A DNA stretch of 64,000 bases from the NCBI GenBank assembly GCA_963969395.1, contig OZ017798.1:26156173-26220172 (forward strand). Reading direction: 5' to 3'. The notes below the pieces were generated by a model. The model had not been told where the DNA came from. It saw nothing but the letters and a program-made list of their open reading frames with translations, and made no database searches. This document shows, one piece after another, positions 1-58,993 of this stretch; position 1 is the stretch's first letter; each line of letters begins with the position of its first letter. This stretch comes from Pseudoscleropodium purum (lineage: Eukaryota > Streptophyta > Bryopsida > Hypnales > Brachytheciaceae). A program made the position numbers and the translations under genes.

Positions 1-2459
1 TACATAATTATTTCCAATTCCGGATCTGCACTCACATCACTCTTTACTAAAAACCGGATTACTGTTTCGATAGTTCAAAGGCACCACGCGCAATTCTTTT
101 GTCTCGTATCTAACATCATTACAATAATACTCCCTCAATCCGATCAAGTTATCCGAAATCCGGATTCCTCCTCACCCGTCCTTCTCACATCTTAATACTC
201 AAACAACAAACCAATACAATCCAGATACACGGTTGGAGCCAGAATGTTCACCAAGTGACTCAAATTAAAGAAGGGAATTGAATACACAAAATAATTGCTA
301 GAATGGAATGAGAGGGCAACAAACTTACCTACCCTTAAAAATCAAAATCAAAACCAAAGTCAACGCCTAAAAAGCCAAAAAGGCATCTTGGAAATCAGAG
401 CAACCAACCAATGAACAACCTGGGATATTCGGAATATCCACAACCCAACTGCCCTGACAAATCCGAAACCTCTAAAATAATTCGGAACTCGGACCCACAC
501 TTGAAAATCCCGCTCCGAATAATTATCCTACCTAACTACCTACGCTCTACCTACCCTACCGTGCCTTCTTGGAGCTGCTCCCACTTTGATTGCCCAGAGT
601 CTTCACCGAAGCCTTCACTGGTGTACTCTTTACTGAAGATTAGGTTTAGGGCTTCCGTGAAACCTTGAGAGGCAAGTCTTTTGATTTCGTCTCTTCCTCG
701 GATCCGGACTTCAACACCTCTTCTTTCAACTCCTCAATCTCTTGAATCTCCGAATCCTTGGCTTGTAGTGATTCACTCAATTCAATCTCAACACAATTCT
801 GTTTTGAAGTCGACTGTTGCATATGAGAGAAATTTTGCGAATGAGACCGAGCTGGATTCACCATTACTCCAATCCGTGCATCGAGGTTGCCACGAACTGT
901 CAATTCGGGTACCATAAACTTTCCGACCATAACTTTTCTACACGGTGGGAAAATTGGGACGGAAATCCCTTGTTCTACCGGAACAAACTTCTCACTTGCC
1001 TTTTTCTCTGGCTTAAGTACCACAGGTCCTGATAGAATCCGTGTTTGGCTACTTGAGGATCCTGCAACTAGGGTGAGAATAGACTTCAGTCCCTCCGATT
1101 GGAGTTGGATCGGGCCACTTAAAGCTTGCCAGATTGGAGTCTGTTGAATCAAAATATTCCGGAATATGCTCTTGAGGACTTCTGGAAACCCTTCTAAGTC
1201 GATGGCCCATTCCGAATCCAAGTACCCCAGCAACTTCTGCATGTCCTTCAAAACAATCCCCATGTAGACTTCGAAGTCAACCAAGATCTTTACCATCCTA
1301 GATTCAGTCATGTGCCCTTCTTTCTTCAACCAAGCGGTATAGAGGTCACCTCGGATCACCGTATGTTCCGGAACCATGAGGTGTTCTTTGAGGTCGTGGA
1401 TGAATCGGAGAGCCTCCATCTCCTTCCGTCTCGCTGCGTTCAACTCCCCCTCTATCCACTTAAGTTGGGACTTGAAGCTATCCTTTTCTTCTTCTAACTT
1501 CCGGATTTGTTCCTCCTTCTATCGAAACTCTTTCGAATTCGAACGTTTCTAGATCTCCTCTAAAATTTGATTCGACTCCACCTTGAATTCGTTTGCAATA
1601 AGAAGCACGTGATCCTCTAAGTTGCCATACATTTATTTGGCCTGTTGCATCCATTGGATTCCAACTTTGAAGAACTCGAGCTCTTGGAGATGTTCCGGAT
1701 CTGGTATTGGTTCCTCCCGTTCTGATGTTGACGCCTTCCCCCATGTTGCCGAATCTGTAGACTTCCTTCATTTCCAGTCCATTGTTTCTTCTTCCTCTTC
1801 TGATTGCTCTTCTTTGGATTCCTTCTCCTCCTTCTCCTCCTTCTCTAGCTCTTCCGTGAGGCCGTATTTCAGGATCTCAACTCCGGTGTTGTACTCAATC
1901 ATCTCCTTGGCACTCAAGACCTCCTTTTAGTGATAGAGGTAGAACAGATACAGCATGATAGGGTTATACTTTGCTTGGCCCACGTGCTCTACTAGTTTGC
2001 CTATGACTCCTTCAATCACTCTCCCCCAATGTACAATCTGGTCCTTGAAAGCTCCGAAAATGGTGTCGGTCACCATGACCAAAACGCGGGTAGGCTTTTC
2101 CAAATACAAGATTGGAATTAGGAAGTTTAGTACCCGTCTATGCCTCTCATTTTTACAGTCACTAATGGCAAATCCTTCCTTTGAGTGGACTTGACTCCAG
2201 AACTTTCCGGCGACGTACTTATCCGCTCTTCTGGTTAGTCCGAGCCCATTCTTTTTGAACGAATAGACGTCTGCCTAGATGTCTTCCGTCCAAGCTATGG
2301 ATCGACCTCTTATTGTTAACTTGCACTGATTCGGAACTCCGTAAATGAATTCTTGAATCATCTCCTTATTCTTCATGCTCCACACCCTATTTAACAATCC
2401 AATATACCTAATACACATGAGGTCCTCCTCTAACTGCATTACAAAGCTTAGGACTGATG
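1..2459 (-). mobile_element. Partial, decayed copy of the TG...CA gag-like element seen at 51362-54632
   Basis: Read on the minus strand, broken reading frames between about 2450 and 646 match the protein encoded at 51792-53450. Shared stretches include EKPTRV followed by DTIFGAF (other copy NTIFGAL), and SRMVKILVDF (other copy SRMVRILADF). The match begins near 2450 (QLEEDLMCIRYIGL against QLMEDLTSMGCLGF), and the sequence beyond 2459 is unrelated AT-rich DNA, so the 5' end is lost or interrupted there. The noncoding 3' part runs off the left window edge; it keeps CCGGAT-rich sequence and a GAGTCACTTGG segment also found near 54570 in the other copy. Several stops and frameshifts make it non-coding now. 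The homology is read by eye and is strong over the middle region. Confidence 0.8.
646..1443 (-). pseudogene. C-terminal coiled-coil part of the gag-like protein, decayed copy
   Basis: This open stretch of 265 codons is the longest intact piece of the decayed copy. It matches the C-terminal third of the protein at 51792-53450, including the SRMV(K/R)IL motif followed by a charged helix, and ends in an acidic and lysine-rich tail. It has no zinc knuckle and no enzyme motif that I can see. It is not expected to be expressed as a full protein. Confidence 0.6.
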
Positions 2460-6904: not shown

Positions 6905-7870
6905 CAATCATCCTTAACCTTTTAACCCCTAAATGCCCAAACTATGTTTTTTGGCAACATAGAAATTTTGGACAACTCACTAAAAATGGAGTTTTTATTT
7001 ATTTTCTTTGAAAATTTAACACAATATATGCCTAAAGGGTAACTTTAAGGCCCAACAATTTTCATGACTTTTGATTATATAATTAAAAAGTTATTATATG
7101 ATATGTAATTTTCATTGCTTGACGGGCAACTTGGGCAATAAAAAAAACTTCTTTAAAAATCATTTTTTTAATAAATTAAAATTTGAAATTGGTTCTCTTT
7201 ATTTTCATATACTTAGAGAGCTTTGAATTATTCCATTTTGATCAATGAATCAAAAATTATGAGGAGTTTTAGTTTGTGGGAGTTTGTTGGTCATTATTGA
7301 ATCTCTACTCTATGACAAACTTTGAAGTCCCTTATTTAACTTAATTTTCAATATTTTTGGAAAAAAAATAAAAAAATTTGATATAGATTGTTAATAATAG
7401 CACTGCAATCGTTGGTATTGGCATTTTTCAATATCAAAAATAAATTGTTAACAATTTAGTATTTTGAATCATTCTCTATTTGTTTCTACTTACTATTTTT
7501 TCCTATATGTTGTATGATTCCAAATGATCTAAAATTTTTCAAGCATGTAGCCAACTTGACTTGAAAAATGAATTCAAAGAGTAACCACCATTTTAGACAT
7601 TTTTTCTTACAGATGTGACCTTCTGAAGTGCAGCTACCTGGATTTTCATAGGGCCCAAAAGGGAAATGTATCACTTCAAATGCTAATATCTTGCAATCTA
7701 CATGGTCGGAATTTTTGAAGTTTTTTCTACATGTTTTCAAATAAGCTTACTACAAGATCCTATAGCTACATGTATCCAAAAAAAATAGAAAAAAAAATTG
7801 GTATATGTATTGGGTACTTGCAAGAAACACTTGCCAGTTTTGGGTCAAAATGGCCTTATTACTAGAATTT
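6905..7870 (+). repeat. Dispersed AT-rich repeat family, copy A
   Basis: About 950 bp aligns by eye with 31420-32370. Shared landmarks in the same order include AAGGCCCAACAATTTTCAT, ATTCCATTTTGAT, AATATCTTGCAATCTACA, and ACTA(C/T)AAGATCCTATAG. A tail resembling the end of the other copies (TTTTTTGGTGAAAAAATAGTC, then TTTAGGGGTTA) lies at about 8565-8605, so this copy may extend to there with extra internal sequence. There is no coding capacity that I can defend. Confidence 0.7.
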
Positions 7871-31419: not shown

Positions 31420-32370
31420 TCTAAGCAAAAACACCATTTAACCTCTAAAGGTCCAAATTGTGTTTTTTTGGCAATATAGAGATCTTGGGTAGCTAACTAC
31501 AAATGGATTTTTTAGTTTTTTTGATTGAAATTTTCACACAAAATGTGCCCAAGGAGTATCTTTAAGGCCCAACAATTTTCATAATTTTTGACTACATGAT
31601 TCAAAAGTTATTGCATGATATGTAATTTTTGATGCTTGGTAGGCAGCCCAAAAATTTCTTAAAAAATCACTTTTTTCAAAAAGAAAAATTTGAAATTGAT
31701 TTTTTAGACTTCTATGTATGTGAAAAGCTTTGAATCATTCCATTTTGATTTATGAGATGAAAGTTATGAGGTGTTCTAGTTTGTGGGCAGTCATGGATTC
31801 CCTACTCAAAAATAAACTTTGGAGTCCTTTATTTAACTCAATTTTCAATATTTAAAAAATAAAATAAAAAGATATGATGTAGATTGTTCATTACTACATT
31901 ACCACTGTTGGAATTGTAATTTTTCAATCTCATAATTAAATTCTTAACAATTTAGTGTTTTGAATCACTTTGTACTTCTTTCTATTTACTATTTTTTTCC
32001 TATATGTTGTGCAATTCCAAATGATCTAAATTTTTTTAAGCATGTAGACAACTTAACTTGAAAAATGAATCCAAAGAGTAACCGTCATTTTGGACATTTT
32101 TTCATGAAAATGTGACCTTGTGAAGTACAGCTGCCCGTATTTTCACAGGGTCAAAAAAAGATTTTTTGTCACTTCAAATGTTAATATCTTGCAATCTACA
32201 CGGTGGAAAATTCTGAAATTTTTTCCACATCTTTTCAAAATAGTTTACTATAAGATCCTATAGTTACATGTGTCCAAAAATGTTTTTCATCTAAAATTTG
32301 ATGCTTGTATAAGAAATGGCAGTTTTGGAGCGTTTTTGGTGAAAACATAGTCTTCGACCTTTAGAGGTTA
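31420..32370 (+). repeat. Dispersed AT-rich repeat family, copy B
   Basis: It aligns with 6905-7870 over its whole length by shared ordered landmarks, and its right end (GGTGAAAACATAGTC, then TTTAGAGGTTA) matches the ends of copies A and C. It is non-coding. The family's ends and mode of spread are undetermined. Confidence 0.7.
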
Positions 32371-36048: not shown

Positions 36049-39000
36049 TTAATTTGGTGTGATCAATCCTTTGTGTTTTTGTGCTTTTGTACTTGATCTG
36101 GGACTTGCTGGTTGCGAACTTGATAGGTCATTTAGCCCCCATTGTATTCCTTTAGTTCTTACACCAAAGTTGTGTGTACACCATATATGTTTTGTTTTAG
36201 GAAGTGCTTTCGTTAATACATCTACTACCATAAGTTCTGTTGAACAATAATTTATCTTGATCTCAGATTTTTCTACATGTTCTTTTATAAAGTGATGACG
36301 TATTTCTATATGTTTTGTTCTTGCATGGTATTTGGGATTCTCAGTAAGTGCGATTGCACTTCTATTATCACAATTTATTGTTATTGGTGATGTTTGAGGT
36401 TCTTGTATATCACCAAGGAGATTTCTCAACCACAAAGCTTCTTTCACAGCTTCAGTGCATCCCAAGTATTCTGCTTCAGTGTTGCTTAGGGCCACAGTAT
36501 TTTGTCGCTTACTGCTCCAAGAAATTGCTGTGCCATTAATTAAGAAAACATAGCCAGATGTAGATCTTCTTTTGTCAGTTTCTCTAGCCCAATCTGAGTC
36601 AATATATCCAACTGGGCTAATTAAATCTTCACTATTTAACTTTCCATCATAAGTCAAACAATAATCTAATGTACCTTGTAAGTATCCCATTATGCGTTTT
36701 ACAGCCGTCCAATGAGAGGGTCCTGGATTAGATAAAAATTGGGACACTACTCCCACTGCATAGGCTATATCGGGTCGTGTGCAAATCATTGCATACATCA
36801 AACTACCAACTGCACTTTGATATGGTATTTCCTCCATTGCTTGTTTTTCTTCTTCCGTTTTAGGACACATTTCATTTGTTAGCTTAAGTCCAGTGGCAAA
36901 AGGTATATCAATGGGTTTACAATCTATCATATTGTATTTCTTTAAAACATTCTGTATATAATGTCTTTGGTTTAATTTAAGTTCTTGCTTTGAAAAGTTT
37001 CTCTCAATTTGAATTCCTAATAGAGATTGGACCGGACCTTGGTCCGTCATCTCAAATTCATCATTTAATAATTTCTTATACTTTTGAATTAATTGTCTTT
37101 TCTCATTGCAAATTATTAAACAATCATCAATATAAATTGCAACAATCACTATGAGAGGTGGTTTTGAATAAATGTAAACATTAGAATCGGCTGAACTTAC
37201 ATGAAACCCAATATCTTTCATGTAATTTCTAATTCATTGATACCAATATCTTGCCGATTGTTTAAGTCCGTAAATTGTTTTATTTAATTTACAAACTAAA
37301 TGTTCAAACCTTTTCCTAGCAAATCCAGGAGGTTGCATCATATATATGTCTTCATTTAAAACACCATTTAAGAATGACGTTTTAACATCCATTAAATGTA
37401 CTTCATATCCTTTCTCTGCTGCAATAGCAAGCAAAGTTCGAAGAGAAGTAATTTTTACAATTGGAGAAAATGTTTCATGAAAATCAAGTTCAGGCATTTG
37501 GGAAAACCCCTTTGCCACTAGCCTTGCTTTTCGTCTGTCAACTGCACCATCATCTTTTAATTTCAATTTAAAAATCCATTTACATCCAATGGGTTTTCTA
37601 TCTTTTGGTGGCTCAACTAATGACCATGTATCATTTTTTTTATCAAAGAATCATATTCTTGTTTTACAGCCTCCATCCATTGAGGTGCATCTTCTCTTTG
37701 TGAGGCTTCTTCGAGAGTCTTAGGTTCAATAATCAAGTCTATAGAGGTTAAAGCTTGTATATAAGCTAAATATTTGTTACCACTTGTTTCAATGTTTTCT
37801 ATAGCCTTTTTACTTAATTTACGAGCTCTTTGAGACTTTCTTACCCCGGTGGTTTCTTCAATTTGATCCGGTATGTTTTCTATGGCATCATTTTGCTCAT
37901 CAATGTCTTCAAATAAATTCTCAGGTAAAAATTGAATAGGATCAAACTCATTAATCTCATTAGTAGGGTCTTCACTTGTAATTTCATTGTCATTCCTTGT
38001 TTCTTCAAGGTTTGTTGAACTTATCCTCGAGACATCAAAACTTTTGTCATCATAAGATAGTGATTCTTGCACCAAGGGGATGGGTTCATTATTTGGTTCT
38101 AAGTTAGTTGGAGGATGTACTTCCCCTACCTTATTTTGTTGGGAAGGTAACACAATACTTCCTCCAGATATTGAATGAAAGTCCTTATTTAAGGATATAT
38201 TCAAATTTTGTGATTTGGATAAGGGAATTTCTTCATTGAAGATAACATCCCTACTAACAATAATCTTCTTTGACTTAGGATCATACAATCTATATCCTTT
38301 TGTGCTTTCCATATATCCTAGCAATTTACATTTCTTTGACTTATAATCAAATTTTTGTCTTACTTCGGTTGGTATATGCACATATGCATCACATCCGAAG
38401 GTTCTTATATGCTTCAATGAAGGTTTAATTCCCAACCACACTTCTTCAGGAGTTTTATTTTCTAATGCACTATGTGCAGATCTATTTTGTAAGTAACATG
38501 CCGTAGAAATTGCTTCTGCCCAAAATTGATTTGGCAACTTTGAAAGATGTAACATACATCTTGCGCTTTCAACTAAACTTCTATTTTTCCTTTTAGCAAC
38601 TCCGTTTTGTTTTGGAGTATAGGGAGCTGTTAATTCTCTTGCTATTCCATGTTTACTACAAAATTCTAACCAATTTTTAGATACATATTCGCCACCATTG
38701 TCACTTCATAACGTTTTGATTGTCATTTGAGATTGGTTCTCAACTAAAGCTTTGAAGATTTTGAATTTATCTAAAACTTGAGATTTTTCATAAATGAAAT
38801 ACACAAAAGTTTTCCTTGAAAAATCATCGATAAAGGTGACAAAATATTTCATTTTATCATATGATAAGGTTTGCATTGGTCCACACACATCGGAATGAAC
38901 CAATTCTAATATCGTTTTAGTTCTTCTACTTTGACCAATAGGAAACTTAAGATGTTGTTGTTTTCCATACAAACAACTTGGACAAAATACTAACTTTTGT

Positions 39001-40448
39001 TGTGGTATTAAGTCCAAGCCTTCAACCATTTGATGTTTAGACATTAATTTTAAATCTTGTTCACCAATGTGACTCATTCTATAATGCCAAACATTTATAT
39101 CAGATTTTGTTGGTATAGAAGAATTACCTATGTCTGAAATTGCATTTGCAATTATTGCATGCTCATCAATTTTGCAAGAAATATCTAACTTGTATAGATT
39201 TCTTTGCCGTTTTCCTGTGCAAACAATTTGATTAAGGGAATTATCTTTGACAATACAAACATTTGGCTTGAATGTAATATCATATCCAGAATCTGTAACT
39301 TTTCCCACTGAAATCAAATTAGTTTGTAGATTTGGCACATAGAGGACGTCATTTATACGTCGATTTTGTCCATTGGGTAAGTGGACTATGATAGATCCTT
39401 TTTCTATCACATCACAATAAGTGTTATCTGCTAGGTAAACTTTTTCTGGATTTTCTATCTTTGTAAATTGAACAAACTAATTTCTATTTGGTGTTATGTG
39501 GTGTGATGCACCTGAATCCAAATACCAATTATTTGTTTCATTACTTGCATTTACTAAAGCAGCAATGAACAAAGTTGGTGGGTCTTCACTTGCTATGTTC
39601 AATTTAACTTCATTTGGTCTTTGTTCTTGTTTAGAGAGTTTGCAATCACTTGCAAAATGACCGTATTTATTACAATTAAAACATTTAACTTTCTTAATGT
39701 TTTTAGTGAATTTGGGTGGTGGTCCACTCCTTTTATAGGTGTTAAAACCTTTCTTCTTTTGAAAGTTGAACTTTCTTTTTGTATAAAACACACTTGATGA
39801 TGATGATGACAATTCATTGTTGAAATGACCATCCAACTTTCTCCTTAATTCTTCCTGCAATAACTTTGACATTGCAGTTGATAAGGTGATGCCAGCAGTG
39901 TTGCTTAAGACATCAACCACATTTTGGTATGATTGTGAAACACTTCCAAGAAATGTTTCAAGTTGTTCGTCTTCTTGAATTGTTGCACCGACGGCAATCA
40001 ATTCATCAAAAACTGACCTGAACATATATATATGTTCGCTCATACTCTTATCATCATCCATTTTCAATTTAATGAATTTTCTTCTCAAATACACTCTATT
40101 TGATATGTTGCTAACTTGATAAATTGCTTGCAATTCATCCTAGGCCTCTTTAGCCGTCGCAACTCTAGTGATGTGATGAAGACTTGAATTCTTCACACTA
40201 TTAACTAGTATAGTGAGGGCAGACAGGTTTCTATCTTCCCAATCAACAATACTCTCCGGCCCGGTTGCAGGTAAGGGAGCAATGTTTGCCTCCATAGGGG
40301 CAACTGGTCTTCTTTCGCTTCCGTCAACAATAGACCATAGCTTTTCTTTCTTTAGAGTGAAAGTTATTCTAGTTCTCCATATAGATTGATTTTACCCATC
40401 TAACTTATCAATATGACGTAATTCGTATGGAGAACTTTAAATATTCAT
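36049..40448 (-). pseudogene. Copia gag-pol polyprotein (broken)
   Basis: A single minus frame runs from the ATG at 40448. Domains in order: gag with KEKLWSIVDG, a CCHC knuckle CFNCNKYGHFASDC, protease WYLDSGASHHIT, integrase (WHYRMSHIG, CPSCLYGKQ, VHSDVCGPM, SDNGGEY), reverse transcriptase (IYIDDCLII box) and RNase H (SNTEAEYLG, KHIEIRHHFIKEH). In-frame stops lie at 40437-40439, 40392-40394, 40140-40142, 39477-39479, 38706-38708 and 37234-37236. One frameshift lies near 37640 in a run of eight T on the plus strand (eight A in the coding sense). Neighbouring context (for example TL*SDNGGEY and YWYQ*IRNYM) suggests most stops were Trp, Arg or Gln codons changed by one transition. Confidence 0.95.
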
Positions 40449-41170: not shown

Positions 41171-41178
41171 CTTGATAG
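41171..41178. repeat. hAT target-site duplication, left
   Basis: CTTGATAG, identical to 51215-51222. Eight base pairs is the hAT hallmark. Confidence 0.9.
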
Positions 41179-41311
41179 TAGGGTTGACGAATCTCTACGT
41201 CCGCCCCAAAATAGCGTCCGTTTTCCGGACGTCCGGACGCACGGACGCTAGCGGATGCAGCGTCCCTCCCGCCGTCGGAAGGCGGATGGGCGGGGCGGAC
41301 AGACGGGGTAG
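41179..41311. repeat. hAT left terminus with GC-rich subterminal repeats
   Basis: The terminal TAGGGTTGACGAATC is followed by dense GGACG/CGTCC words. The first base is T where the right end and the nested MITE have C, again a C to T type change. Such arrays are usual transposase-binding sites in hAT elements. Confidence 0.8.
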
Positions 41312-41887
41312 CTTAGAAAACCCATTTTGGGTTTAGGGTTTTGATTGTTTTCACCAATGAAAGGTTGAGAGTGAAGTCATTTTGATTTTAATTTTTCTTA
41401 TATTGCAATTGCGATTCAATAGAGTTGTATATCACTATTTATGTAAAAGCTAAAATATGAAATATATTTTTAATTTTTTTTGTTGAATTTCATTTTGATT
41501 TAGAAACAAAATCACTTTAAAATCCAGCGAGATGTATATCATCAATAAACAAACAATTTTATAATAAAATGATTGAAGAAACCATTGTCATTTGTCAACA
41601 TGAGCTTCATATATCATAAGCAACTAAACAATCAAACATCTAAATTCACATCTCCACAATTCCTATGGACGCCAATCCACATCTCCTCTAACCTCAGCTC
41701 CACTACTCTTTCTTGCAACTCTCCGTTCAAAATCTTCATTATCGGAGTCATCTTCATTGTTGGAGTCATCTTCATTGTTGGAATCAAGTATCGTTGTCTC
41801 CTTCAAGTCTTCTTTCGAAGTAGGTTTACTCCCTTCTTTCGAATTTAATTTTTCTTCTTCTACTTTGACAGAACGATTAAAGGCTTT

Positions 41888-44800
41888 TTAAATAGGAACC
41901 TTTCTTTTTTTTCTATTTGACAAAGTAGCAACATTTTCATCAAGAGGGGTCCTATTCTTCACTGGAGAGATAGAAAAAGGTTGCATTTCTCTTTTCGCTT
42001 TCACGTTACTCGATTCTTGAACCATCAATCTCGATGTAGGGTCGACATGTCCATGAACGGTTATCTCCACTTTGGCTTTCTTTTGAAGTAATAGAGTGCC
42101 GTTTGTTGATTTGATGGGTTCTTGCGCCATTCCCTTTCCTAAAATGCAAGCACACAAAGATGCCAATGGCATCCGATCACTATCCGTATCACTTAGGCTT
42201 GTAGGTGATGACGTTACTTTCCGTAGATTACCGCTTGTAGAAATTTCTTTGGAAATATTCATTAGGCATTTTCCATATCCAAAGCTCTGAGAATCATTCA
42301 ATCGTGTGGTAACAGACTTCAATGGTATTGGTGGAAGAGCACTAGATCTCGGTACTTCAAAAATTGACTTCATTGGCTCTTTTCTTTTATCACTCTTCAC
42401 AATTGCCGAATTTGTGACTACCATCCCAAGTGAATCATTATTTTTCTGTACCGCAATATTTGGTTCCCCCTCATCACCACTATTGTTGCCCACATCTTTT
42501 GGAATGTCCACCTCCATGACCGCATCTTCTCTTTTGTCGTTTCCTTGCACTACATTTAATGCCATAGATGGAGATTGAGAAATTAAAACTTCTTCATTTC
42601 TCCCATCATCACCAATAGCATTCTCATTGATTTTCACCTCTTTGGCAATAGCGTTTGCCTTTTCCGATAGAATGTTTTCGCTATTCAAGAATTCCATTCC
42701 ATTGCAATATGCAGTTAAAGAAGGTAGATTCGCCTGTACCCCTACATTGTCCTCGTCTTCACAAAAGGTATATGCATCGTTTGCATTGTCGGGAACGACA
42801 TCCTTGCGGTTTAGATGATAATCATGCGTATCATTCACCAAATCGGGAAAGCCTTCCATAACGTCTTCATCTCCCCATGCTGTCGCACGATTGAAGTCAT
42901 CTCCGCCATCTACAGCTGAAAGGGCCCTTTCCAAATCCTCGTCATCATCGTCTTCTAACGTCGGCCTATCTGAATCCTCTGATTCCATTGGATCCACATT
43001 ATCATTATACCATTTTTTTTCATCTTTTTCCTTCGATGCGTTTAATACTTTGGAATTGATATACACGTACACCAAATCCGCTGCTCTCTCCGGCTTCAAT
43101 TTATTTTGAGATTTGTTGTGAACAAAAGAATAATTGCTCCAATTTCGTTCACATGAAGATGATGACACCGGTTGAGCCAATATCCTCTTCGCTAATGGAA
43201 CTATAAACTTGCCACATGCACCTTCAAAATCCCACCAAGCATGTGCGGACAACATTTGATCTCCCAGATTCAACATATTGTGAAATGGAGGTTCCTTGTG
43301 TCGAAAAGCTACAAATTCCTTCACCACTACTGCATATTCATCTGGTTTACATATTCTCTCCAAAACTTTCTTACATCCTGACATTGCATCTGCGTCATCC
43401 GCTAGCTCTTTGTTATGAAGAAGGTATGGATTCAAAAGAGCTACGGCTGATTGGAGATCGTTGTCCACCATTCTTCTTCGGGCATAAAAAGACTATACCA
43501 ATGGAATTGCAAATTCTTCTAGCAAACAAAATGGTGGACTTTGTAATCCGTTCACGTGCTTCTCTAATTTCCTCATGATATGCAACACCTTCCCTATGCA
43601 TGGTGATTTTGAATCCAAATCGCGAAGTGCACATATGATTGGTTCAACCATCTCCACATAATTGATGGACTGATTCCAAAAATGGTCATCAAGAATAATT
43701 TTCTTCACCGCTAAGGCCAAGTCTTTTGGTTGGACTTTGGCTCCACGTTTTTTCTTGAGAGTATGTACATACTCAACCCATTGCGGATCTACCACCGTTT
43801 GTTCCAATGCTCCTCTCAATTTTATCAAACGTTCCATCATGATAAATTTAGAGGCGAACCTTGTATCCCCAGGCATTAAGAGACCAAGATTTGGCGAATA
43901 CTTTCACAATAGAGCTAGCGGCATATGTCTCTTTCTGATAAATTTAGCTACAAGAACTCCTTTATCCAATTTGGAAGCAATCCATTTTTGTGCAGCCCAA
44001 TCCTTCAACAACAAATTCAATGCATGTACCACGCACCTTTGGTAAAAAATATGAGGATATTTTGCAGATATTACATCCCATGCGGACGAATTCACGGGAG
44101 CATTATCCGTAGTTATTAACACGACGTTCTTGGACCCCACTTGTTCAATGAACTTTTCCAACACAGTTGCCAACAGGGTTGACGAATTTCAACATCCGCC
44201 CCAAAATAGCGTCCGTTTTCCGGACATCCGGACGCACGGACGCTAGCGGACGCAGCATCCCGACCGCTGTCGTAAAGCGGACGGGCGGGGCGGACGGGAG
44301 GGGGCGGACGCCCAGATCGTGCTGACCAGATCAGTTCACGCGTAGATCGGACGGCCGTAATCGGGCGGACGAACGGGCGGACAGGGGACAGGCGGACGTT
44401 GTGTCCGCTAGGACGCGAATGTCAGCGGACGCTGCGGACACAGCGTCCGCGTCCGAACGTCCTGTCAACCCTGGCTGCCAAATACTCCGCATTTTTTTCA
44501 CAACCACTTGTATCTACAGATCCAAGAAATTCTTCACCTGCGGATAATACAAGCATAGCATTGATGAGAGGTCGATTAGTCACGGAGCTCCATCCATCAA
44601 TGGACAATGTTGCTCCAAATTTTCGAATGCTATCTTCAGTCCGTGCATTCAACTGTATCTGAATGTTGGTCTTCGCCTCATTCAACAATTTGTACCGAAG
44701 GTCGTGGTATGAGGGAGGAATGTATGGCCTACCAAACGCAACCGTTTTCTTCACTACTTCTTTAAAAGCTGGATTTCAAGCCACGGAAAATGGTATGTTC

Positions 44801-45327
44801 GCCGAATAAAAAAAATTTGCCCACACTGAATGTAATTTGCGTCTATGACCTTCTTCAAACCCATTCAGTAAGCTGCCTTGCCTCTGAGGCCTAAAACTTG
44901 ATGTCCTCGGGGTTTCACGTTCACTAGAAGCTTCCGTATTCAAAGTCATTTCAGTTGTGGCACATACCATTGATACTAATTCTTTGGACGCTGGACAAGA
45001 ATCTTCGTGGTCAGAATGCGACACAACCTTTCCGGCCGAAAACTCTTGAACATCTGAAAGGCCAGGGTTGCCATCCACATTGTCCATTACAACGGGTTTT
45101 GGAAAAACTCCTTCGCAATGCCGAAATAAATTTCAAACTGCCATTGATAATCGTGGATAAAGGCTCACTCCTTTATCACGTACACCTCCAGGCCCAGAAT
45201 AGCCTAAGTGGCTGAACATACAGCTGAGCTTCCTTGACATGCTCGCTTTGCAAAGCCTACATTTTACTTTACCACCCTCTTGCACACTAAACCAAGGAGA
45301 AAAATCCCCCATCGGTTTGGCCACCAT
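41888..45327 (-). pseudogene. hAT transposase with BED-like zinc finger, interrupted by a MITE and four stops
   Basis: If the 300 bp MITE and one target copy are ignored, one minus frame of about 1,043 codons runs from the ATG at 45327. A BED-like finger (VKCRLCKASMSRKLS, then MFSHLGYSG) is N-terminal. The catalytic domain has LSIDGWSSVTNRP with the first Asp (about 44597), LITTDNAPVN with the second, and the conserved Cys-His in YQRCVVHALN. The hAT dimerisation region reads SSSSCERNWSNYSFVHNK then KLKPERAADLVYVY (about 43175-43050). A 375-residue acidic, disordered tail with a basic end (NRKKRKVPI) follows, longer than is usual. Stops lie at 45133-45135, 44776-44778, 43904-43906 (TGA) and 43493-43495 (TAG). 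All are explainable by single transitions, so the gene is recently dead. Confidence 0.92.
44174..44473. mobile_element. 300 bp hAT MITE nested in the transposase, made of the host element's own ends
   Basis: It starts CAGGGTTGACGAATTTC and ends GTCAACCCTG, flanked by GTTGCCAA (44166-44173) and GCTGCCAA (44474-44481), an 8 bp duplication with one transition. Its left half matches 41179-41311 (including CCCCAAAATAGCGTCCG) and its right half matches the last part of 51056-51214 (AATGTCAGCGGACGCTGCGG). It is thus an internal-deletion derivative of the same element. Removing it restores the transposase frame across YLA-TVLEKF. Confidence 0.92.
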
Positions 45328-45640
45328 ACTAACAAGTGTATGTTTTACCTCAATTTCAAAAGAAATCAATAAAATGTTTTAAATTTGAAACCCACAACGT
45401 GACAATGTATACAATATCAATGAAATTAGTCACACAAAGCTTTGAAAATCAAAGTCCCCCCGTCCACCGAACTATGCATTACCAAACAAGAGACTCAATA
45501 AATTGAAGCTCATAGCCCTTGGAAATCTTAGCGTTCGGTTTTTCGAGAGTGAATACCAAAGCTTCTCTTCTAACATTTATAGTCCCCTCCAGAAAATTAA
45601 AGGTTCATTTTTAGGGTTTCCGTTCAAAAACAAGCAACGG

Positions 45641-45860
45641 CCCGGACGGGGCGGGCGGACGGACCGGTCGGACGGGTCGGACAGGGCGGTCGGACGGGGC
45701 GATCGGGCGGACAGGCCAAACAGGGCGGACGGGGCGGTCGAACGGGACTGTCCGCACTATCCGCCTTCCAACGCCGTCCGCACTTTGGACACGCTAACCG
45801 CCTCACTTAAACACTGACCGCCGACGGCGTCCGCCCAGGTGTCCATTGGAGCATCCTAAG
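45641..45860 (-). repeat. Internal CGGACG-type repeat block upstream of the transposase
   Basis: Irregular tandem GGACGGGGCGG words, reading CCGCCCCGTCC on the transposase strand. The block lies about 310-530 bp before the transposase ATG. It has no TIR at its border, so it is internal to the element. It may act as promoter or as extra transposase-binding sites; that is inference. Confidence 0.7.
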
Positions 45861-47724
45861 AGGCCGATATAACTCAAAAAGAGCGGTAACATTTCCAAAA
45901 AAAAACAGCCTAATAATCACTGCTAAATGAGGATCAATGTAATTGATTTATCATTTAAAAAAAAAAAATGTAAACCCTAAACCCTATACCCTAATTACCC
46001 TAAACCTTTTCTTTTCTCCCCTAAATTGTTTTACGAATGAGGGGAATGTGGTTAAGTTGAATATGTTTGGATAATTTACTCATATTATCCTTCTAAATAG
46101 GTTTTGAGAAGATCTGAAGATGGTGGGGATTTTTTTAAAGTTCATTAGGAAATCAAATGTTTTGCAGAAATAATCAATTCCTTTTTCATCATAAGCAAAT
46201 GAAATTTTAAAAAAAGGCCCCAATACATAATTAGAATAACAATTTAATGGATTTCAACCTCATGATATTTAATGAAAGGTTGTGTTTTCTAATTAGAAGT
46301 GCATCACGATCTTGAAATGAACATCGAGTCTTTCATATTTTTTAATGAAATTTTGATTAGATTTGAAAACAAAGAAAAAGAATCAATGTTTTAACTTTCA
46401 AATCATATATGGCTATATTTTTCCTTAAAAACATAGAAAAATTCGTTACTTGAGTTGGTTGAGTAGAATACATTATACACTTATACATGTACTATATTTA
46501 TTTTGAAGGGTAATTCCAATATTCTTATTTAAGATGTTTTTAAATATTAATTTTAAAAAAGAGGGTTCATTGTTTAAAGATCTAAAAAATTGACAAACAT
46601 AATTTCTATTATAAATAGGAATTGAATTCGGAATTCGAATTTTGAAATGATTCAAATGAACAAGATATTGATTATAAAATATTTCTTTGTTTGAGTTTTC
46701 AAAATGAATTCACGAAACAATTGCAAACTTTTGAACTTAGGTATATGATATTGTTTTCGGTTTGTACTTTGTAGAGTATAATACTTCAATTTTAATCCTA
46801 AATAAATGAAAAAACTCCACATGAATGAAATATTTCTATGTATTGCACAAAGATTTCTACCAATTACTATGATAATTAAATACATTGTTACATTTCATAA
46901 AATATTCTACATAGAAAGAAAAAATCATTTCAGTTTTCAATCATGATAAACGATGTCTTCTACTCTTTTTGTTATATGTTCATTTTGTATAACGTGTACA
47001 TTGTACAATCTTTGAGAGCAGGGGAGCTCATTTTTGACTCTCATTGAAATAGAAAATATATTTGTGTTTGGATTCTGAAATCATTATGTATTCTACAGTC
47101 TTGCAAGAATGCATCTTGCTTTTTCCTTTGAATCCTTTTGATATTTTTTTTTCCTTTGCTTTCTCGTAGGGCTCTTGTTCTCTTCATTTGACCAGCCTAT
47201 TTGGCTTGGCTCTTAGTTTTTGTTTTTTTTAATGCAATGGTTTATGCATATGTTATAAAAAATATATATTATTTATTTAAAATTAATATATTGATGAACG
47301 AACGCATAAAGGCATTCAATGCTTTCACATTTAAAGTTATAAATCTATCATAAATCACTCTTACAAATTTGAATGATTGAATCGAAAATTTGAAAATGTA
47401 ATTACAAGAGCTTTCAATTCAATCAATTGCATAAATCATAAATGTTGAAATGCAACTCGTATGAGTTTAGCATCTATGAAGATTAATTCATGCCATCCAC
47501 ATGCAATTTTCGAATTTAATAAAATGCAATTGAGTACTTCAATTTCTTTCCCTTCAATTCTCCAAGTAACATTCACTTCATATCTTTCTCTATTTGTTTA
47601 TTTAATTTTTGGGAATAAATGGAGAAACCATCTTTGTCTATATTTGAACATGCACTCTTATTTGATTGATGAAGAATAGATCTATGAAATATATAATCAT
47701 TGATTTGTTCATGTTGATTTATTT

Positions 47725-47770
47725 AATATATTTAATATATGTATATATATTTATATATATATATATATAT
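47725..47770. repeat. (TA)n microsatellite
   Basis: Almost pure TA/ATATT repeats inside the AT-rich spacer. Confidence 0.8.
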
Positions 47771-47984
47771 CATTAAAGGAGTATGAAAGACAAGATTGAC
47801 AGATTGTGTTCAAATGTTGTTGATTTTGAAATGATTTAGTACTATATCATTTATAAGAATATTATAATGGTATTATGTTATAATATTCCTAAAACAATTG
47901 CAACAAATATTAAAATACATGCTAAGTTAGGTTTGTTAGCCTACCAATTGTTCATTAATAGACATAATTGAGTAGCCCCCTTAA

Positions 47985-48195
47985 ATGAAACACTCAATAT
48001 CTAATATCTTACAATCCAAATGGTGGATTTGTCTAAAAATTTTTCCACATCTTTTCCAACTAATTTACTACAAGATCCTACGGTTACATATGCTCAAAAG
48101 TATTTTTCTTCCAAGACTTGGTATTTGCACTACTACTGGCAGTTTTGAAGTGTTTTTAGTGAAAAGAACTTTAGGGGCTAAACATCTATACCATT
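47985..48195 (+). repeat. Dispersed AT-rich repeat family, copy C (3' fragment)
   Basis: It matches the right part of copies A and B: AATATCTTACAATCCAAA, TTTTTCCACATCTTTTC, TTTACTACAAGATCCTACGG and the end TTTAGGGGCTA. Its presence within the hAT means one of the two inserted into or captured the other. Confidence 0.6.
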
Positions 48196-48636
48196 AGATT
48201 TTGAAAAAAGAACAATTTGCTTCATTGGGGATAACTATAAGTCCATGCTCTTTTTCGATAGCCAAAACACACTTGCAAGGACTTGGACATTTAGTGGTTT
48301 ACTAAGTGATTAGACGTCAACTAATTCAATTTAATAGTAGAATTTTTATTCAACTACCTTATTACAATTGCTTTATACATAATGCAACGTGAATATTTGG
48401 GTACATATATTAAACGTCGCAATCCTTTCGTCAATTTTTGCACATTTTTGCTCATATCTTTGTACAAAAATATTTTTTACCAAGAATTCATAAATTTGGT
48501 CATAAAGGAAGGCTACCTTTTTTAATTTCAAATTTTACATTGAATGAATGAAAAGTTAGTTGAACTATACAATGCCATGAAGACCTCTGTTTATCGTGCA
48601 AAATATGGATTTAGGATCGCTTTAGGGTCAAACCGC

Positions 48637-49025
48637 CCCGTCCGCCCCATCCGCCCAGACCCCCGTCCGTCCAGACCCCGTCTGCCCGGATACCTGTCCG
48701 CCCCGTCCGCCCTCTTCGCCCCGTCCGCCCCGATACCTGTCCGCTGTCCGCCCTGTTCGCCCCGATACCCGTCCGCCTCGTCCTCCATACGCCCTGTCTG
48801 TCAGATCCGGCGGCCGCCCTGACCGCCCCGTCCACCCCGTTTCGGCGATGCGTCCGCCCCCTCGGACTGTCCGATCGGGCGGACGGGGCTCTAGGGTTTC
48901 GGGGAGGCGGACGGCCGATCCGTCCGCCACCCCCGGCCCGTCCGATTGGGCGGACGGTTTAGGGCCGTCCGATGGGGCAGACGGGCCATCCGCCCTTATA
49001 AGAGGGGCGGACGGGCCGTCCGCAT
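48637..49025 (+). repeat. Internal CGGACG-type repeat block upstream of the kinase-like gene
   Basis: Irregular CCGCCCCGTCCGCCC words on the plus strand, changing near 48870 to GGGCGGACGG words. It ends about 200 bp before the kinase-like ATG. Relative to its gene it has the same orientation as the block before the transposase. Open frames across it on both strands are low-complexity artefacts. Confidence 0.7.
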
Positions 49026-49223
49026 TGTCACTTTTGCTTTGCCCCTTGTGAATGCAAGGTGGAGCGGAGAGCTTGGTGGTTCATCCTCCATTGGCTCCTT
49101 TCCGAGGCAAGGCAAGGCAAGAGTGGTTTATTGGGGCCCCCTTGTTGCTAATTTTTTGGACACTTGCGCGTGAATTCAATTTCAAATTAAAAAATTTGAT
49201 CTATATCAATTTCATTTGTCACG

Positions 49224-50372
49224 ATGACGAAGGGGAAGAAGAAGGTTGCGAAGCTTAAACATGGAGAGGGACCATCAAACTTGGAGGTAGCTCGCCAAAG
49301 TCCTTCAGAGGAATACAAAAAATTCATGATTGAGCGCATCGTTCAATTTTATGAATTAGAAACAACATTGTCTTTAGACAATAAGTACATCAGATATCAA
49401 GAGGAGTGTGTGTCTAAATTCAAGATAGACATGACACAGATGTTGTTGGATGCATTGAATGTGGCGAAGTGGCATGACGAAATGCATAAAACGTACTTCA
49501 CCAAATGTTTGGAGAACAAGGTTCATGACGCTTTGTGGAATTCTAAAGTCATTTTGGTTAAATATGGCAAGGAATATCGACCCAATGACGCCCAGTTTGA
49601 AGAAGTGATTCTGAAAGCGGACTTATTTAGGGGGCGATGTGCTCCATTCGCCAAAACGCAGAATCGAGTTGGTTCAATTGGTTGGTGGAAAAGCAATGAT
49701 GGAGTTGTTGAAGCGGAAAGGAACAAACGGCACCTCATAGCACTTCCAGATACAGCACTCATGATTGCTGTTGATGATAGAACGATGAGAGGTGGATATG
49801 CAACGATTCGAAAGGTTCGTATTGAAGGATGTCCAGGAATACTTCCTCATTGGGAGTTTGCGGCAAAGAAATCCATTCACCACCAAACTCGACCCGATCT
49901 TGCAAAGTTAGAACATCAAAACGAATCAATGGCTGTTCAAATTCCACACGTAGGTGTGATACGGTTTGTTGCGGTGCACGGAACGACGTGTGAAGGTTAT
50001 GCGTATTGGTGGAATGGTGGAATTCTTCGACAAATGTTGAATATGGATAAGGACTTTCCAGACAACATTCAAATCCGTTTGATGTATACGAATCCAACCG
50101 AAGAGAAGGTTGTAAAAGCTCACCATTTAGGACGATATCTGAAGAAGCGCACGGAGTTGATATCGGCGTTTATGCATATAATGTATGTAGTGCATCTTGC
50201 TGGACATTTGCACAATGATCTTTCTCCGGACAACATCTTGTTGTATTTTCTAGAAGATGAGTCACGTGTGTACATTGGAGTTTGCGATTGGGACATGACC
50301 ACCTTAGCTTCTCAGCCAGTGAAGTCTTTGTACACATTTACATCAGCAGATGAGATGAAACAAACTTTGTAA
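49224..50372 (+). CDS. Protein-kinase-like gene carried by the hAT element
   Basis: An intronless frame of 382 codons from an ATG after a short leader. The N-terminal 175 residues are basic then helical, without a known domain. A kinase fold follows: glycine-rich loop RGGYATIRKV (189-198), AAKK with the ATP-contact lysine (215 or 216), a helix-C glutamate candidate at 230 or 234, then PHVGVIRFVAVHG, the usual beta-4 region. The C-lobe has catalytic HNDLSPDNILL (His330, Asp332, Asn337) and CDWD in place of DFG (Asp355). All catalytic positions are kept, so activity is plausible. The substrate is unknown. It lies entirely inside the transposon. The frame stops at 50372 early in the C-lobe; related sequence continues to about 50718. 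I do not recognise a host orthologue. Confidence 0.75.
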   Translation: MTKGKKKVAKLKHGEGPSNLEVARQSPSEEYKKFMIERIVQFYELETTLSLDNKYIRYQEECVSKFKIDMTQMLLDALNVAKWHDEMHKTYFTKCLENKVHDALWNSKVILVKYGKEYRPNDAQFEEVILKADLFRGRCAPFAKTQNRVGSIGWWKSNDGVVEAERNKRHLIALPDTALMIAVDDRTMRGGYATIRKVRIEGCPGILPHWEFAAKKSIHHQTRPDLAKLEHQNESMAVQIPHVGVIRFVAVHGTTCEGYAYWWNGGILRQMLNMDKDFPDNIQIRLMYTNPTEEKVVKAHHLGRYLKKRTELISAFMHIMYVVHLAGHLHNDLSPDNILLYFLEDESRVYIGVCDWDMTTLASQPVKSLYTFTSADEMKQTL

Positions 50373-50718
50373 AGGAGATGGTGGGTGGATCCACGTATTG
50401 CATATTTGCATAAAGCAGGTGCAGATGTGGAAGTCATTCCGATGTATTCACGTAAGTCGGAAGAGTATGCCATTCAAAAAATTGCTTAGGCGAATGAATG
50501 GAAACAACATGTCAAAGGCGTATTTCAACGTGCTACGAAAAACACCTAGTGCGACACAATTTGCCTTTCATGACTTTGCAAAAGTGTTTTATGCTTACTT
50601 GAAGCGCATTTCTTCGAAGACTGACGATGAAAATACTAGTTTGGCCCATGTGATTACGCGATTTTCTAATACATATCGTTGGCCGATGCCAGATGAACAT
50701 TTCCGCCATTTATATTAG
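50373..50718 (+). pseudogene. Decayed C-terminal part of the kinase-like gene
   Basis: After the TAA the same frame continues RRWWVDPRIAYLHKAGADVE and EEYAIQKIA, then a TAG, then ANEWKQHVKGVF. The next frame takes over as KTPSATQFAFHDFAKVFYAY and ends FRHLY before a stop at 50718. Both stops could be CAA to TAA and CAG to TAG changes; the frame change lies near 50545. The original protein would have been roughly 495 residues, giving a C-lobe of near-normal size. Confidence 0.6.
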
Positions 50719-51055
50719 ATTGGTAGTGTAGAAGTAGTAGTTGAATAGGTTATATAGGCATTAAAAATTAGTTTAGAAATATAGAGTTGGAATGAAAAAA
50801 ATTATATGTGCAATTAGCCAAATGTGCACAATGTATGGTATTCTACATTAAATTGAATACATTTTGCCCATATTGATTATGTTTGTATTTGTATTGATCT
50901 CGATTTTTTAAATAGTATATATATATATTTGAAGTCACAAATTTTTTTAGTTTGCCTTCTGAAAATGAATTGGAATTTTTTCATAGTTTCAAGACTATCA
51001 TGGACTCATGGTAAAACTTTATAATCTTTTAAATTGTTTAAAGATTAAGGGAGTG
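50719..51055. other. 3' flank of the kinase-like gene inside the hAT element
   Basis: AT-rich, no gene. It probably holds the transcript end. Confidence 0.4.
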
Positions 51056-51214
51056 ACCGCGGGGCAGTTTGGATAGGGTGGTCGGGGGAAATAGGGCCAT
51101 CAAAGTGGACGGGACGCACGGGGCGGTCCTGGTGGACGCTGCGTCCGCAGGGACCGCGAATGTCAGCGGACGCTGCGGACACAACGTCCGCGTCCGGACG
51201 TCGTGTCAACCCTG
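51056..51214. repeat. hAT right terminus with GC-rich subterminal repeats
   Basis: It contains GTGGACGCTGCGTCCGC, AATGTCAGCGGACGCTGCG and ends GTCAACCCTG. The last 60 bp or so are nearly identical to the right half of the nested MITE. Confidence 0.8.
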
Positions 51215-51222
51215 CTTGATAG
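51215..51222. repeat. hAT target-site duplication, right
   Basis: CTTGATAG, identical to 41171-41178. Confidence 0.9.
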
Positions 51223-51791: not shown

Positions 51792-53450
51792 ATGCCGCCG
51801 CTACGTAGGTCTAGACCAGCGAGTCCCTCTGGAGGCGAGGTGAAGCTCCGGAAAGTCATTCCGGTTATTCCCTCCACAGAGCCGGAAAAGTCTCAACTCA
51901 TGGAGGATCTCACCTCTATGGGTTGTCTAGGGTTTGCAGAGAAACCCTGGTGGTTTAGGGAGGAGAGAATGGTCAAGGAGCTCCTCGGAAAGCTGTCCAA
52001 CCAGTATGACAACACCATGAGAGGAACTCCCGTCCGCTAGAACGAGGGAATGTGGAGAGCGGTTTCCGGTTTCTGGGCAGGAGGTTTAGGGATGGCGAAC
52101 CGGAAGGATGAGTTTGTCCGAGGGAAGTTCCAGGGGGCTGTCAACCCGAAGGACGGATACGCGGTCGAGGATTGCGTGGATGACCGACACCGTCGGCTCC
52201 TGCAATTCCTGGTTCCGGTTCTTCACCCGGAAAAGCCGACCAGGGTGACGATCACCCTCGGCAACACCATTTTCGGTGCCCTCAGTGGTACCCGGAAAGT
52301 GGACTGGGCACGGATCATTTCCGATCTCGTGACCCAGCTCGTTAGTAGAGTTGGGAAGAAGAGGGCCAGTCCAGTGTGCCCTTACCTCTTCCACCTCTAT
52401 CGTGACCACCAAGTCCTCACTGACGCGGAGGAGAAGGTGTGGAGGACTCAAGAAGTCCTCCTGAAGTATGGGGAGTCGGAAACGGATGACGAGGCCGAAT
52501 CCGATTCCGAGTCAGAGCGGGAGTCGAGCGAGGAAGAGGAGGAGCCGATGCCGCCCATCAAGCGACAGAAGTTGACGCCTCCACACAAACGCGGGACGCC
52601 TCCTGGTCAAGACAGACCGGCCCCGGAAGAGAGACCGGAAGCCGAGAAGACCGTTTCCAGGGGAGACCTGGAAATGCAAGATCCGTTCAACGGTCTTATC
52701 AATGTCCTCTGCAACATCAGGGCGGATTGGGAGGTCAAGCACAGGACGCTTGCAGCGATCGGAAAGTTGGTAGGTGCGCCACCGGACAGCAAGTTGGCGG
52801 AAAAGGTGGCGGAGTGCATCACCAATCCAGAAGAGACCCGGAAACAGGAAGCAGAGATCCGCCGGTTGCAGGAGGAGGTGGATAACCTGAAGGCAACTCT
52901 TTTTGCCTATCGGGAAGACGTGACGGCCACCCGGGAGATGGCGGAGGAAACTCGGAAGATAGCCGAACGAATCAAGGCGACCCTGGGAGAAACCGGAACG
53001 GCCGCCGCCAAAGCGAAGCTCTTCGACGAGAAGATCCACGAAGAGAAGAAACTATCCGGTTCCCGAATGGTCCGGATTCTCGCCGACTTCGCTGAACAGG
53101 TGGAGACGGTAATGGTGGAGGGGCGGAAGGCTGCGGACCGGATCGAGGAAAGCAGCCGGAAGCTGACTAGAGCGACGTGCTTCAAGGGGATACATCTTTC
53201 GGATATCTCGCTACCGGATATCTTTCCGGACGCGACCATTCCGAAGGATAGGAAGGATTGGACTCCCGAGTCCAAGAAGTCTACCCGGGCTGAGACTCCG
53301 GGCAGGAGACCGGATATCACAATCGACCTGGAGTCTTCACCCGGATCTAACCCTGCGGAGGGGGAACGGATCCGGAACTTGAGTGAAGTCTTCGAGGAGC
53401 TGGTTCCGGAGATCGGAAGCCTGACAATAGGATCTAGGGTTGTAGAGTAG
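51792..53450 (+). pseudogene. Gag-like coiled-coil protein, one in-frame TAG
   Basis: The frame runs from the ATG at 51792 to 53450, 552 codons, broken once by TAG at 52038-52040. The N-terminal part is basic, proline-rich. A conserved core follows (EKPTRVTITLGNTIFGAL, DWARIISDLVTQLV, PYLFHLYRDHQVL), shared with the copy at 1-2459. An acidic run (about 52490-52545: ESDSESERESSEEEEE) precedes a long coiled coil (AEIRRLQEEVDNLKATLFAY). The C terminus is disordered. The core has the flavour of plant transposon proteins of unknown function or of retroelement gag, an inference. In the other copy the codon aligned with this TAG is Trp, so TGG to TAG explains it. Codon use is GC-rich, unlike its surroundings. 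Confidence 0.75.
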
Positions 53451-56000: not shown

Positions 56001-58993
56001 GTTCTACATATACAATCAAAACTAGATCAAATACTATAATGGGCTTGTCATGACCCTATTTCAATTCTACACTCTTTTATGGCTTTTTGTATACTTTTAT
56101 CTACTTTAAATGGCGATTTAAAACAAAAGAAAATCTTTGAGTTCCAAGTGACGAATTGGAAGCTCATATTGTTGGATCATTGTCTTGGGATTCAAAGAAA
56201 CAAAACAGGTTGTAGAGGATTGGTATTTCTTGCAATCCTTGATATACTAAGATTGGCAGACCTCTAGATAATATCATGGGGGCAATGGTGGGATCTACAA
56301 CTGCTTCTAGTGGTTTTACATCATGTACCAGTGGTACTTTATTAGGTGCCAACAGTCTTGCTGGTCTAAATGGGGCATTATGCCTGTAGTTTATTTCTTT
56401 TTCAAAAGTTTGAAGGACACCAAGCCTTTTTATAAAAGTTTCAAGAGAACCAACCCTTTCTTTGGAAGTTATAACTGACAAATTTATTCAAGTTGAACTA
56501 CCTCCGTTTGTCTTGTGTTTCAAGTCTCAACATTCTATTTGACTTTAGTGTGTTAGTAGATTTAAGTGGCATTTAAAATTTGTATGTTAGTAGATGAGTC
56601 AATTCACACCAAACAAATCCAATCATAAGTAAATACATAAATACAAATAGAAAAATTACTCCACACAATACTATCAAGCTAGCTATTCTAAGTTGATGCT
56701 ATAATCTCATTATTACAAATATGAATACTCATGATCTATATTAAGGTTGGTCGATATTCGAAGAAATATGGTGCTTATGTCTCTTCGATTGATAGAAAAT
56801 GACATTTTCAAATAGTGGCATTTATGTAAAAGATTGCATGTAGAATTTGATTTTTTCAAGTCCTTTACCATATAATAAATATGAATAGTACAATGGATGA
56901 AAACGAGGCCAATGAAGATTCTCACATCCCAAAGCGATATTCAGCAAAATTTGGTAGTCTTTGGCATTCTTATAGGATTTACAAGCTAAAGTGTACTCAA
57001 TGATATATTTGAACTGTTGTTCCATGATGAAGGTAGATGGTATAAGACTAGTCAAAATGCCTTGACAACACTGAATGGTTAAGGGACTAATGCCGCTATG
57101 CCACAACTAAAATTACTCTAGTTTGATGTAGGAATTGTTGTGATTTCAAATCTTGCCACAATTCTATTCGTTTATTTGAAAATGATTGATGCCTTAAAGA
57201 GGAAGTGGTGTTGCGTATCAAATATTGAAGAAAAGCCACTCGGTAAAAATCTCATTTCTATCGTTGACAAGATGTTGAGCCTCAAAACATTTATTCATGT
57301 ACATATTTTCAAACCTTTTGTATGCTAATACAAGTCTCCAATCAGAAAATTATACATGAGTTGAACATGTGTTCAAACACATCAAAGTCACATGCATCAA
57401 GAGCGCATGCTATTGGGCCAATATATTTTTTGGGCTCTAACAAGAACTATCAAGCCAAGTGTGCCCAAAACTCAAACGACCAATTTTACTTTTGTAAATT
57501 AAGCACAAGGTATTTTATCAAGAAGACATCATTGACTTCGTCACTGCTAAAGCCTAAGTCATCATCGAAGTAATGTTTGATTGACAGATCTTGATCAGTG
57601 CTTCTCCAAACGTCAAATTATGTGTACAACAGCTCAAGTGGTAAATTTTCTTGAAACACATCTTCAAACTCTTCATTTTTGTCAAACCCTTCGTTTTTTT
57701 GAAGCAATGTAGGATTCCTACAAATTCACATTTAATTAGTAATAAATTTCACATCAAAACAGACTCCTAGCAAATGCAACAATATGTGGGCGTTTATTTA
57801 CCCACCCTTGGTAAATAACCAAGCACAACTAGGTTCTTTTTAATTTATCAATTTTTTAAACTAAGTTGGGTACCTACATGTTGTTCTACTATGCTTTCCA
57901 AGCAACAAATCTTCTTAGAGTGCCTACAAATACTCAAATGTGCAAAAATATTAAAAAAAAAACTATAAGTCAAATGCAAGTATTAAGATAATTGGCTGAA
58001 TGAAGTAGGCCACCGTAGTTTTTCATGCAAGATAAGACAAACAAAAATTAATAATTTAAGCTTATAGAAAAAAAAAATTCCCTTTTCAAAAATGTAAAAT
58101 TCAACCCTAGGTGATTCTCCTAGCCAAAGTTTTAAGTGGATGAAGTTTTAACTACTATTTAGTTCATTAAACTTCATTCATGGTTTTGCCTTAGTTTCTT
58201 AATTCAATTTTATATGAAAATTCATTATAATAGAAATTGGGCCTAGAAAGGGCCTTGGAATCATATTGTTGCCCATCATTTATTTTTTCAAGTTCAAGAA
58301 TCATGATGACGGAATCTACGTGGGCGATAGTAGTACATGTTGTGTAGAACAGTTGTGATCATTCTTAATCAACAACCAAGGGAGCCATTGGATAGCTTTT
58401 GAATGGGAATATTGAGCGAGAAAGGTGATCAAGCTTCTTAGGTGGTACTACTCAAGTTTTGGCGTGAGGGTTTTTGCAAGGGCTTTTTTACTCTACCTTT
58501 TTGATTTTTCATATTTTGGGATTTTGTTTTTGGGATTTAGATATCAAAATGAGTTGAATTTATTCCTTCATGTAGACTTCATCGCAATATGCCACAAATC
58601 TTTAAAACACCTGTCCATGTGTTGATGTATATATTGATTGTTCAATTTGAACTTTGTCTAGATTGATGTTCATACTCAAAGTTTGAACTTCTTGTTTGTA
58701 TGTTATCATTTTCAAATAAACAATTGGTTAGAAAGCCTGAGGAATGATCACAGAGAAGACTTTTATTGGACGAAGGGTGTTCTATCAATTATGATTGGAA
58801 CAAAATATTTGTATTCCAAGTAGTTGTCTCTAACTTGCACCAATTTCTCCTTGATTTTTTTATATGTTTGTTGTCACTCTTTTAACACATGTGTCCTTCA
58901 GGCAAACATTGGATTCAAATGTAGGATACTTAGATTGTCAATGGTCTTTGATCTTATTAAAATCTTGTATATTTTAGGAAGTTCACTTGTTGC
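56001..58993. other. AT-rich sequence with unrecognised minus-strand frames
   Basis: Frames at 56164-56481 (105 codons) and 56822-57106 (94 codons) on the minus strand look mildly protein-like but match nothing I know. They could be pieces of one decayed transposon gene. Confidence 0.35.

Follow-up and report, generated by a model that had tools for sequence, protein, structure and literature searches.

A decayed hAT transposon of the moss Pseudoscleropodium purum carries a protein-kinase-like gene beside its transposase gene and is a probable member of a two-gene lineage

Results

A hAT element with two divergent genes

We analysed a stretch of 64,000 nucleotides from the moss Pseudoscleropodium purum (contig OZ017798.1; hereafter the window, whose coordinates are used throughout), and in particular a 10,036 bp hAT transposon at positions 41179-51214. 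As a sequence-only reading of this DNA had proposed, the element holds two divergent genes, one for a hAT transposase (running from 45327 to 41663) and one for a kinase-like protein (from 49224 to 50718), both of which are decayed (Table 1). The borders and length given by that reading proved exact: the flanking duplication CTTGATAG matches at 8 of 8 positions, and among offsets of up to 3 bases only these borders give 8/8. The two termini (TAGGGTTGACG... on the left and ...TGTCAACCCTG on the right, the latter reading CAGGGTTGACA when reversed) differ in their first base (T/C), are identical over the next nine and show little likeness past the first ten, so that with 16/40 identical positions overall the terminal inverted repeat is short. 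The 8 bp duplication, the short terminal inverted repeats and the C-terminal dimerisation domain of the transposase identify the element as a hAT transposon, and we take its CAGGG-type ends to resemble those of plant hAT transposons.

Within the transposase gene lies a nested, non-autonomous relative of 300 bp, flanked by a duplication that matches at 7 of 8 positions. The 9-mer AGGGTTGAC was found in the 64 kb window only at both ends of the large element and both ends of this nested copy; the 8-mer CAGGGTTG has one extra site inside the element (45063, in the transposase gene). The nested copy joins both types of end and therefore indicates independently that the end next to the transposase gene and the end next to the kinase gene are of one family. 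The matched ends, the 8/8 duplication and the recurrence of both ends in the nested relative thus support the earlier view that the whole element is a single mobile unit.

Table 1. Features of the hAT element and its flanks (positions in the window)
Feature	Position	Strand	Evidence
Left target-site duplication CTTGATAG	41171..41178	.	8/8 versus right copy
Left terminus and CG-rich subterminal region (TAGGGTTGACG...)	41179..41311	+	88% over 129 bp to left end of nested element
hAT transposase gene, decayed; BED finger, DUF659, hAT dimerisation domain; long acidic tail ending SSGAEVRGDVDW	41663..45327	-	Pfam, homologs, pieces
Nested non-autonomous relative of 300 bp; its two ends are of the large element's family	44174..44473	.	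flanks GTTGCCAA/GCTGCCAA, 7/8
CG-rich repeat block 5' of transposase gene	45630..45862	-	repeat and motif counts
AT-rich spacer (27% GC) separating the genes	45863..48619	.	contains dispersed repeat fragment, ~47983-48165
CG-rich repeat block 5' of kinase gene	48620..49030	+	repeat and motif counts
Kinase-like gene, decayed	49224..50718	+	open reading up to 50372; stop(s) and a frame change beyond it; full-length relatives match as far as 50715
Right CG-rich subterminal region and terminus (...TGTCAACCCTG)	51056..51214	+	89% over 84 bp to right end of nested element
Right target-site duplication CTTGATAG	51215..51222	.	match to left copy

The kinase-like gene and its family

The kinase-like gene has relatives in 71 protein clusters at 28-75% identity, two of them with the name Ceratodon purpureus; the proteins of this family have ~495 amino acids (aa), and one cluster has 126 members. 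In 32 aligned relatives the active-site Lys, Glu, Asn-Asp, Asn and Asp are invariant (32/32), the catalytic loop reads HND, not HRD, and the third position of the DWG motif is G in 30 and A in 2. At least three Lys/Arg residues are found within residues 2-15 in 27 of the 32. The sequence-only reading had assigned all catalytic positions to the window gene; it indeed keeps the Lys, Glu, HND and Asn, but has DWD where the family has DWG, and its C-lobe is incomplete, as the frame meets a stop at 50370-50372, with a second stop and a frame change further down.

Judged on the predicted model of a relative, assignment to the eukaryotic protein kinase (ePK) fold is supported. The window piece scores 13.2 bits against the Pfam model Pkinase (cut-off 31.7). 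Among five relatives, P0071 passes Pkinase (45.4), with P0001 and P0040 below the cut-off, and P0027 (23.2), P0067 (24.8) and P0071 (39.5) pass PK_Tyr_Ser-Thr (cut-off 23.1), where P0001 and P0040 are again below. A Foldseek comparison with viral models returned viral kinases at 10-16% identity, which merely repeats the fold assignment. A sequence-profile search of solved structures gave none at E 0.001, and NCBIfam gave weak matches far below cut-off for four of the kinases, which were not used. None of the pattern matches of the kinase profile (14 on contigs of prokaryote genomes, 69 on viral contigs) was confirmed, and P0001 had no match among plasmids and phages.

The transposase and its relatives

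Pfam matches on the transposase pieces were to PF05699 (3e-8), PF04937 (3e-16 and 4e-13) and PF02892 (3e-4), with both halves of DUF659 present across the minus-strand pieces. Apart from the nested insertion, five internal stops interrupt the gene, two in the N-terminal and three in the C-terminal piece. Relatives were found in at least 69 clusters (scoring covered the 7,995 candidates that shared most words), and 30 of the 69 are 900-1,210 aa in size. The C-terminal tail is present in 18 of the 22 rows of an alignment of 21 of the 69 matches with the window piece. Mean conservation of the tail is 0.41; conserved spots are its end, SSGAEVKGDSDY (0.88), and the stretch around MQPFAxSP (0.65). 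In a quick, midpoint-rooted tree with 57 rows (the window, the contig L001 described below and 55 of the 69 matches), for which long branches were flagged, 41 rows formed a group separate from one green algal and 15 named angiosperm proteins.

The transposase profile confirmed none of 99 pattern matches on viral contigs and one of 21 on contigs of prokaryote genomes. The latter, L001 (CADCWO010000266.1), is a contig of 6.3 kb from a cyanobacterial metagenome-assembled genome, presumably a plant contamination, and holds the terminal part of a transposase related at 35-46% identity. On the same strand it encodes an 856 aa RING-finger protein (L001:2825-5392; PF13639, 4e-9), beyond which the contig ends in a block of CCCCGTCCGCCCC-type repeats. 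This protein has relatives in 12 clusters (one 99% identical; up to 45 members per cluster), 11 of which hold the motif SP-x-S...Y-x-TR. No end of an element was seen on L001, so that the RING gene is only a candidate for a gene inside one; its relatives matched the window at best with E 0.017 over 45 residues, and their contig sizes match neither the kinase nor the transposase list. A repeat thought to be common to L001 and the AT-rich spacer was dropped after BLAST gave no such match.

Association of kinase and transposase beyond the window

One relative of the kinase (P0023, 362 aa) and one of the transposase (P0086, 776 aa), neither of full length, have a longest contig of the same size, 27,639 bp, and the same source, 'ena'. 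The chance of such an equality, estimated with jittered sizes, is 0.0015 for the 12 kinase contigs of at least 10 kb and 0.27 when all sizes are taken, and the match therefore derives its weight from being on a long contig. The identities to the window agree between the two proteins (P0023 to the kinase, 54% over 88% of the query; P0086 to the transposase, 56% over 47% of the query), and the pair falls in clades near that of the window in both the transposase tree and the kinase tree, the latter built from 44 of the 71 matches and the window.

CG-rich blocks and AT-rich spacer

The hexamer CGTCCG occurs 46 times on both strands of the element and 6 times in the remaining 54 kb of the window. 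Blocks of CGTCCG/CGGACG precede both genes, with none in the AT-rich middle, which bears out the earlier description of a block upstream of each gene. The same orientation claimed for them is no more than a bias: read along the strand of each gene, CGTCCG outnumbers CGGACG by 5:2 in front of the transposase gene and by 10:4 in front of the kinase gene, and for the pooled 15:6 a two-sided binomial test, calculated by hand, gives ~0.08, where tandem copies are not independent. The dispersed repeat in the spacer (47983-48165) has copies of 76-77% identity at ~7664-7771 and 32182-32345. We found no case for the spacer as an independent insertion; its inverted repeats (the 25 longest of 36) are AT-rich and short.

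Neighbouring features

Immediately left of the element, at 36049-40139 on the minus strand, lies a Copia-like long terminal repeat (LTR) retrotransposon coding region in pieces (frames judged by eye). Two long frames, 646-1518 (minus strand) and 52041-53450 (plus strand), appear similar by eye (a coiled-coil stretch and '..SRMV+IL.DF..') and are perhaps a repeated gag-like gene. ARAGORN placed a tRNA-Lys (CTT) gene at 57345-57431 (minus strand), and an Rfam scan of the window gave no family.

Discussion

We consider the element, with a probability of about 0.62, to be a dead member of a large hAT lineage, the autonomous members of which encode a transposase of ~1,000-1,100 aa and a divergent protein kinase of ~495 aa. 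The hosts of this lineage are probably mosses. The five stops and the nested insertion in the transposase gene, together with the stop and frame change in the kinase gene, make the window copy non-functional. That the kinase is a component of the lineage rather than of this one copy is likely, and its joint inheritance with the transposase across the lineage is supported but not proved. The sequence-only reading had seen a two-gene architecture rather than capture, and there are indeed signs of a lasting kinase component, but the kinase of the window copy is not intact.

Several observations weigh against this interpretation. The gene pair is known end to end from the window element alone, and this copy, being inactive, shows no present function. 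For a second genome, the linkage is based on the equal contig sizes of 27,639 bp and not on contig sequence, no other contig size is common to the kinase and transposase lists, and the N-terminal part of P0086 is merely 43% identical to the window. The kinase and transposase trees differ in branching order, with a support of 88/92 for the grouping of the window kinase with P0023. The kinase is absent from the short nested copy, as is usual for non-autonomous copies, and on the 6.3 kb of L001 the transposase has a RING-type gene as its neighbour, with no match to the kinase. Finally, nothing ties the SP sites of the transposase to the kinase, or the kinase to any substrate.

Plant DNA transposons commonly capture genes, and a hAT copy may have taken up a host kinase gene in the manner of Pack-type elements and moved with it by chance, the gene having no lasting role. 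The decay of the window copy would fit this, and a host parent gene was sought only in one protein-cluster search, which is sensitive to relatives that share short exact words. The relatives listed, however, form one family with many full-length members in large clusters, none of which bears the name of a host kinase with a known function, and one of them shares its contig size with a transposase relative. Such a one-off capture is unlikely, given that the kinase has its own family with large clusters, that its catalytic residues are constrained and that one contig size is shared. It is similarly improbable that the element is a composite in which two adjacent hAT-like units, one with the transposase and one with the kinase, came to share outer ends, leaving the internal CG-rich blocks as remains of the inner ends. 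These blocks do resemble the CG-rich ends in composition and contain inverted copies that face each other (33 nt, 88%), but the 9-mer is confined in the window to the outer ends and those of the nested copy, and a single small nested element unites the transposase-side and kinase-side ends.

The kinase might also serve the host or another mobile element and simply ride along, for instance as a multicopy mobile family that entered different carriers. Most kinase relatives lie on short contigs on which neighbours are not seen, and a study of fungal transposons reports that TET/JBP genes pass between transposon superfamilies (PMC12730594). Against this, the element's own terminal motif is the only one seen around the kinase, and the one link by equal contig size leads to the same transposase family; we give this explanation little credence.

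Relation to known systems

The usual description of hAT elements is of transposons with a single gene. Plant hAT elements of the DUF659 type are alike in their 8 bp duplication and in a transposase with BED, DUF659 and hAT dimerisation domains, whereas the window element is 10 kb long, has a long transposase tail with a conserved end and carries a second gene for a protein kinase. Pack-type plant transposons carry genes unrelated to transposition, usually fragments that have host parents and vary between copies. The window element likewise carries a gene unrelated to transposition, but its kinase stands in a family of its own and had no host parent in the one protein-cluster search.

In fungi, TET+ IS3EU transposons carry oppositely oriented transposase and alpha-kinase genes, and hAT7 transposons carry TET/JBP genes, as described by Kojima 2025 (PMC12730594). 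Accessory enzymes, even kinases, are therefore already known in DNA transposons. IS3EU shares with our element a kinase gene oriented opposite to the transposase, but it differs in superfamily, kingdom, duplication length (6 bp) and kinase type, the window element having an ordinary protein-kinase fold (by Pfam traces and the model). With its hAT domains and 8 bp duplication instead of an IS3EU transposase and 6 bp, the window element is not an IS3EU transposon. The fungal hAT7 elements are alike in having an extra enzyme gene beside a hAT transposase and unlike in their 7 bp duplications and in a DNA-modifying enzyme in place of a kinase. The sequence-only reading knew of no described hAT family of this kind; no plant hAT with a protein kinase of ordinary fold was among the literature matches listed, a search that left most subscription papers outside and did not include Repbase, whereas kinase-bearing DNA transposons as such are known from the fungal work.

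Proposed mechanism and implications

Cut-and-paste is the mode of movement of the hAT superfamily, and an active form of the large element would move in this way. The kinase may act in trans in the nucleus, as its basic N-terminus in 27 of 32 relatives might suggest, and would most likely phosphorylate either the transposase, whose long acidic tail retains an isolated conserved MQPFAxSP-like stretch and the conserved end SSGAEVKGDSDY, or host factors of silencing or repair, thereby setting the level or timing of transposition. Whether the kinase regulates transposition at all is an evenly balanced question. Action on the transposase is attractive because the tail evolves fast and contains conserved islands, one of which has an SP site. 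SP sites are common, though, and action on host silencing is as likely as action on the transposase; the tail as direct substrate of the kinase is doubtful. A wider picture, which we regard as a long shot, is that of an old and large moss hAT lineage with a small set of signalling genes, namely a transposon-born HND/DWG kinase that would phosphorylate the transposase of the same element at its conserved tail motifs, joined in some sub-lineages by a RING ubiquitin-ligase-like protein, so that the element would bring its own transposition switch.

If the proposed two-gene lineage is real, it would show that signalling proteins can evolve within cut-and-paste elements themselves, and mosses, which are tractable, would offer a testable system for how a transposon controls its transposase or counters host silencing by phosphorylation. 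Some of the multicopy genes annotated as 'protein kinase' in mosses might then be transposon genes.
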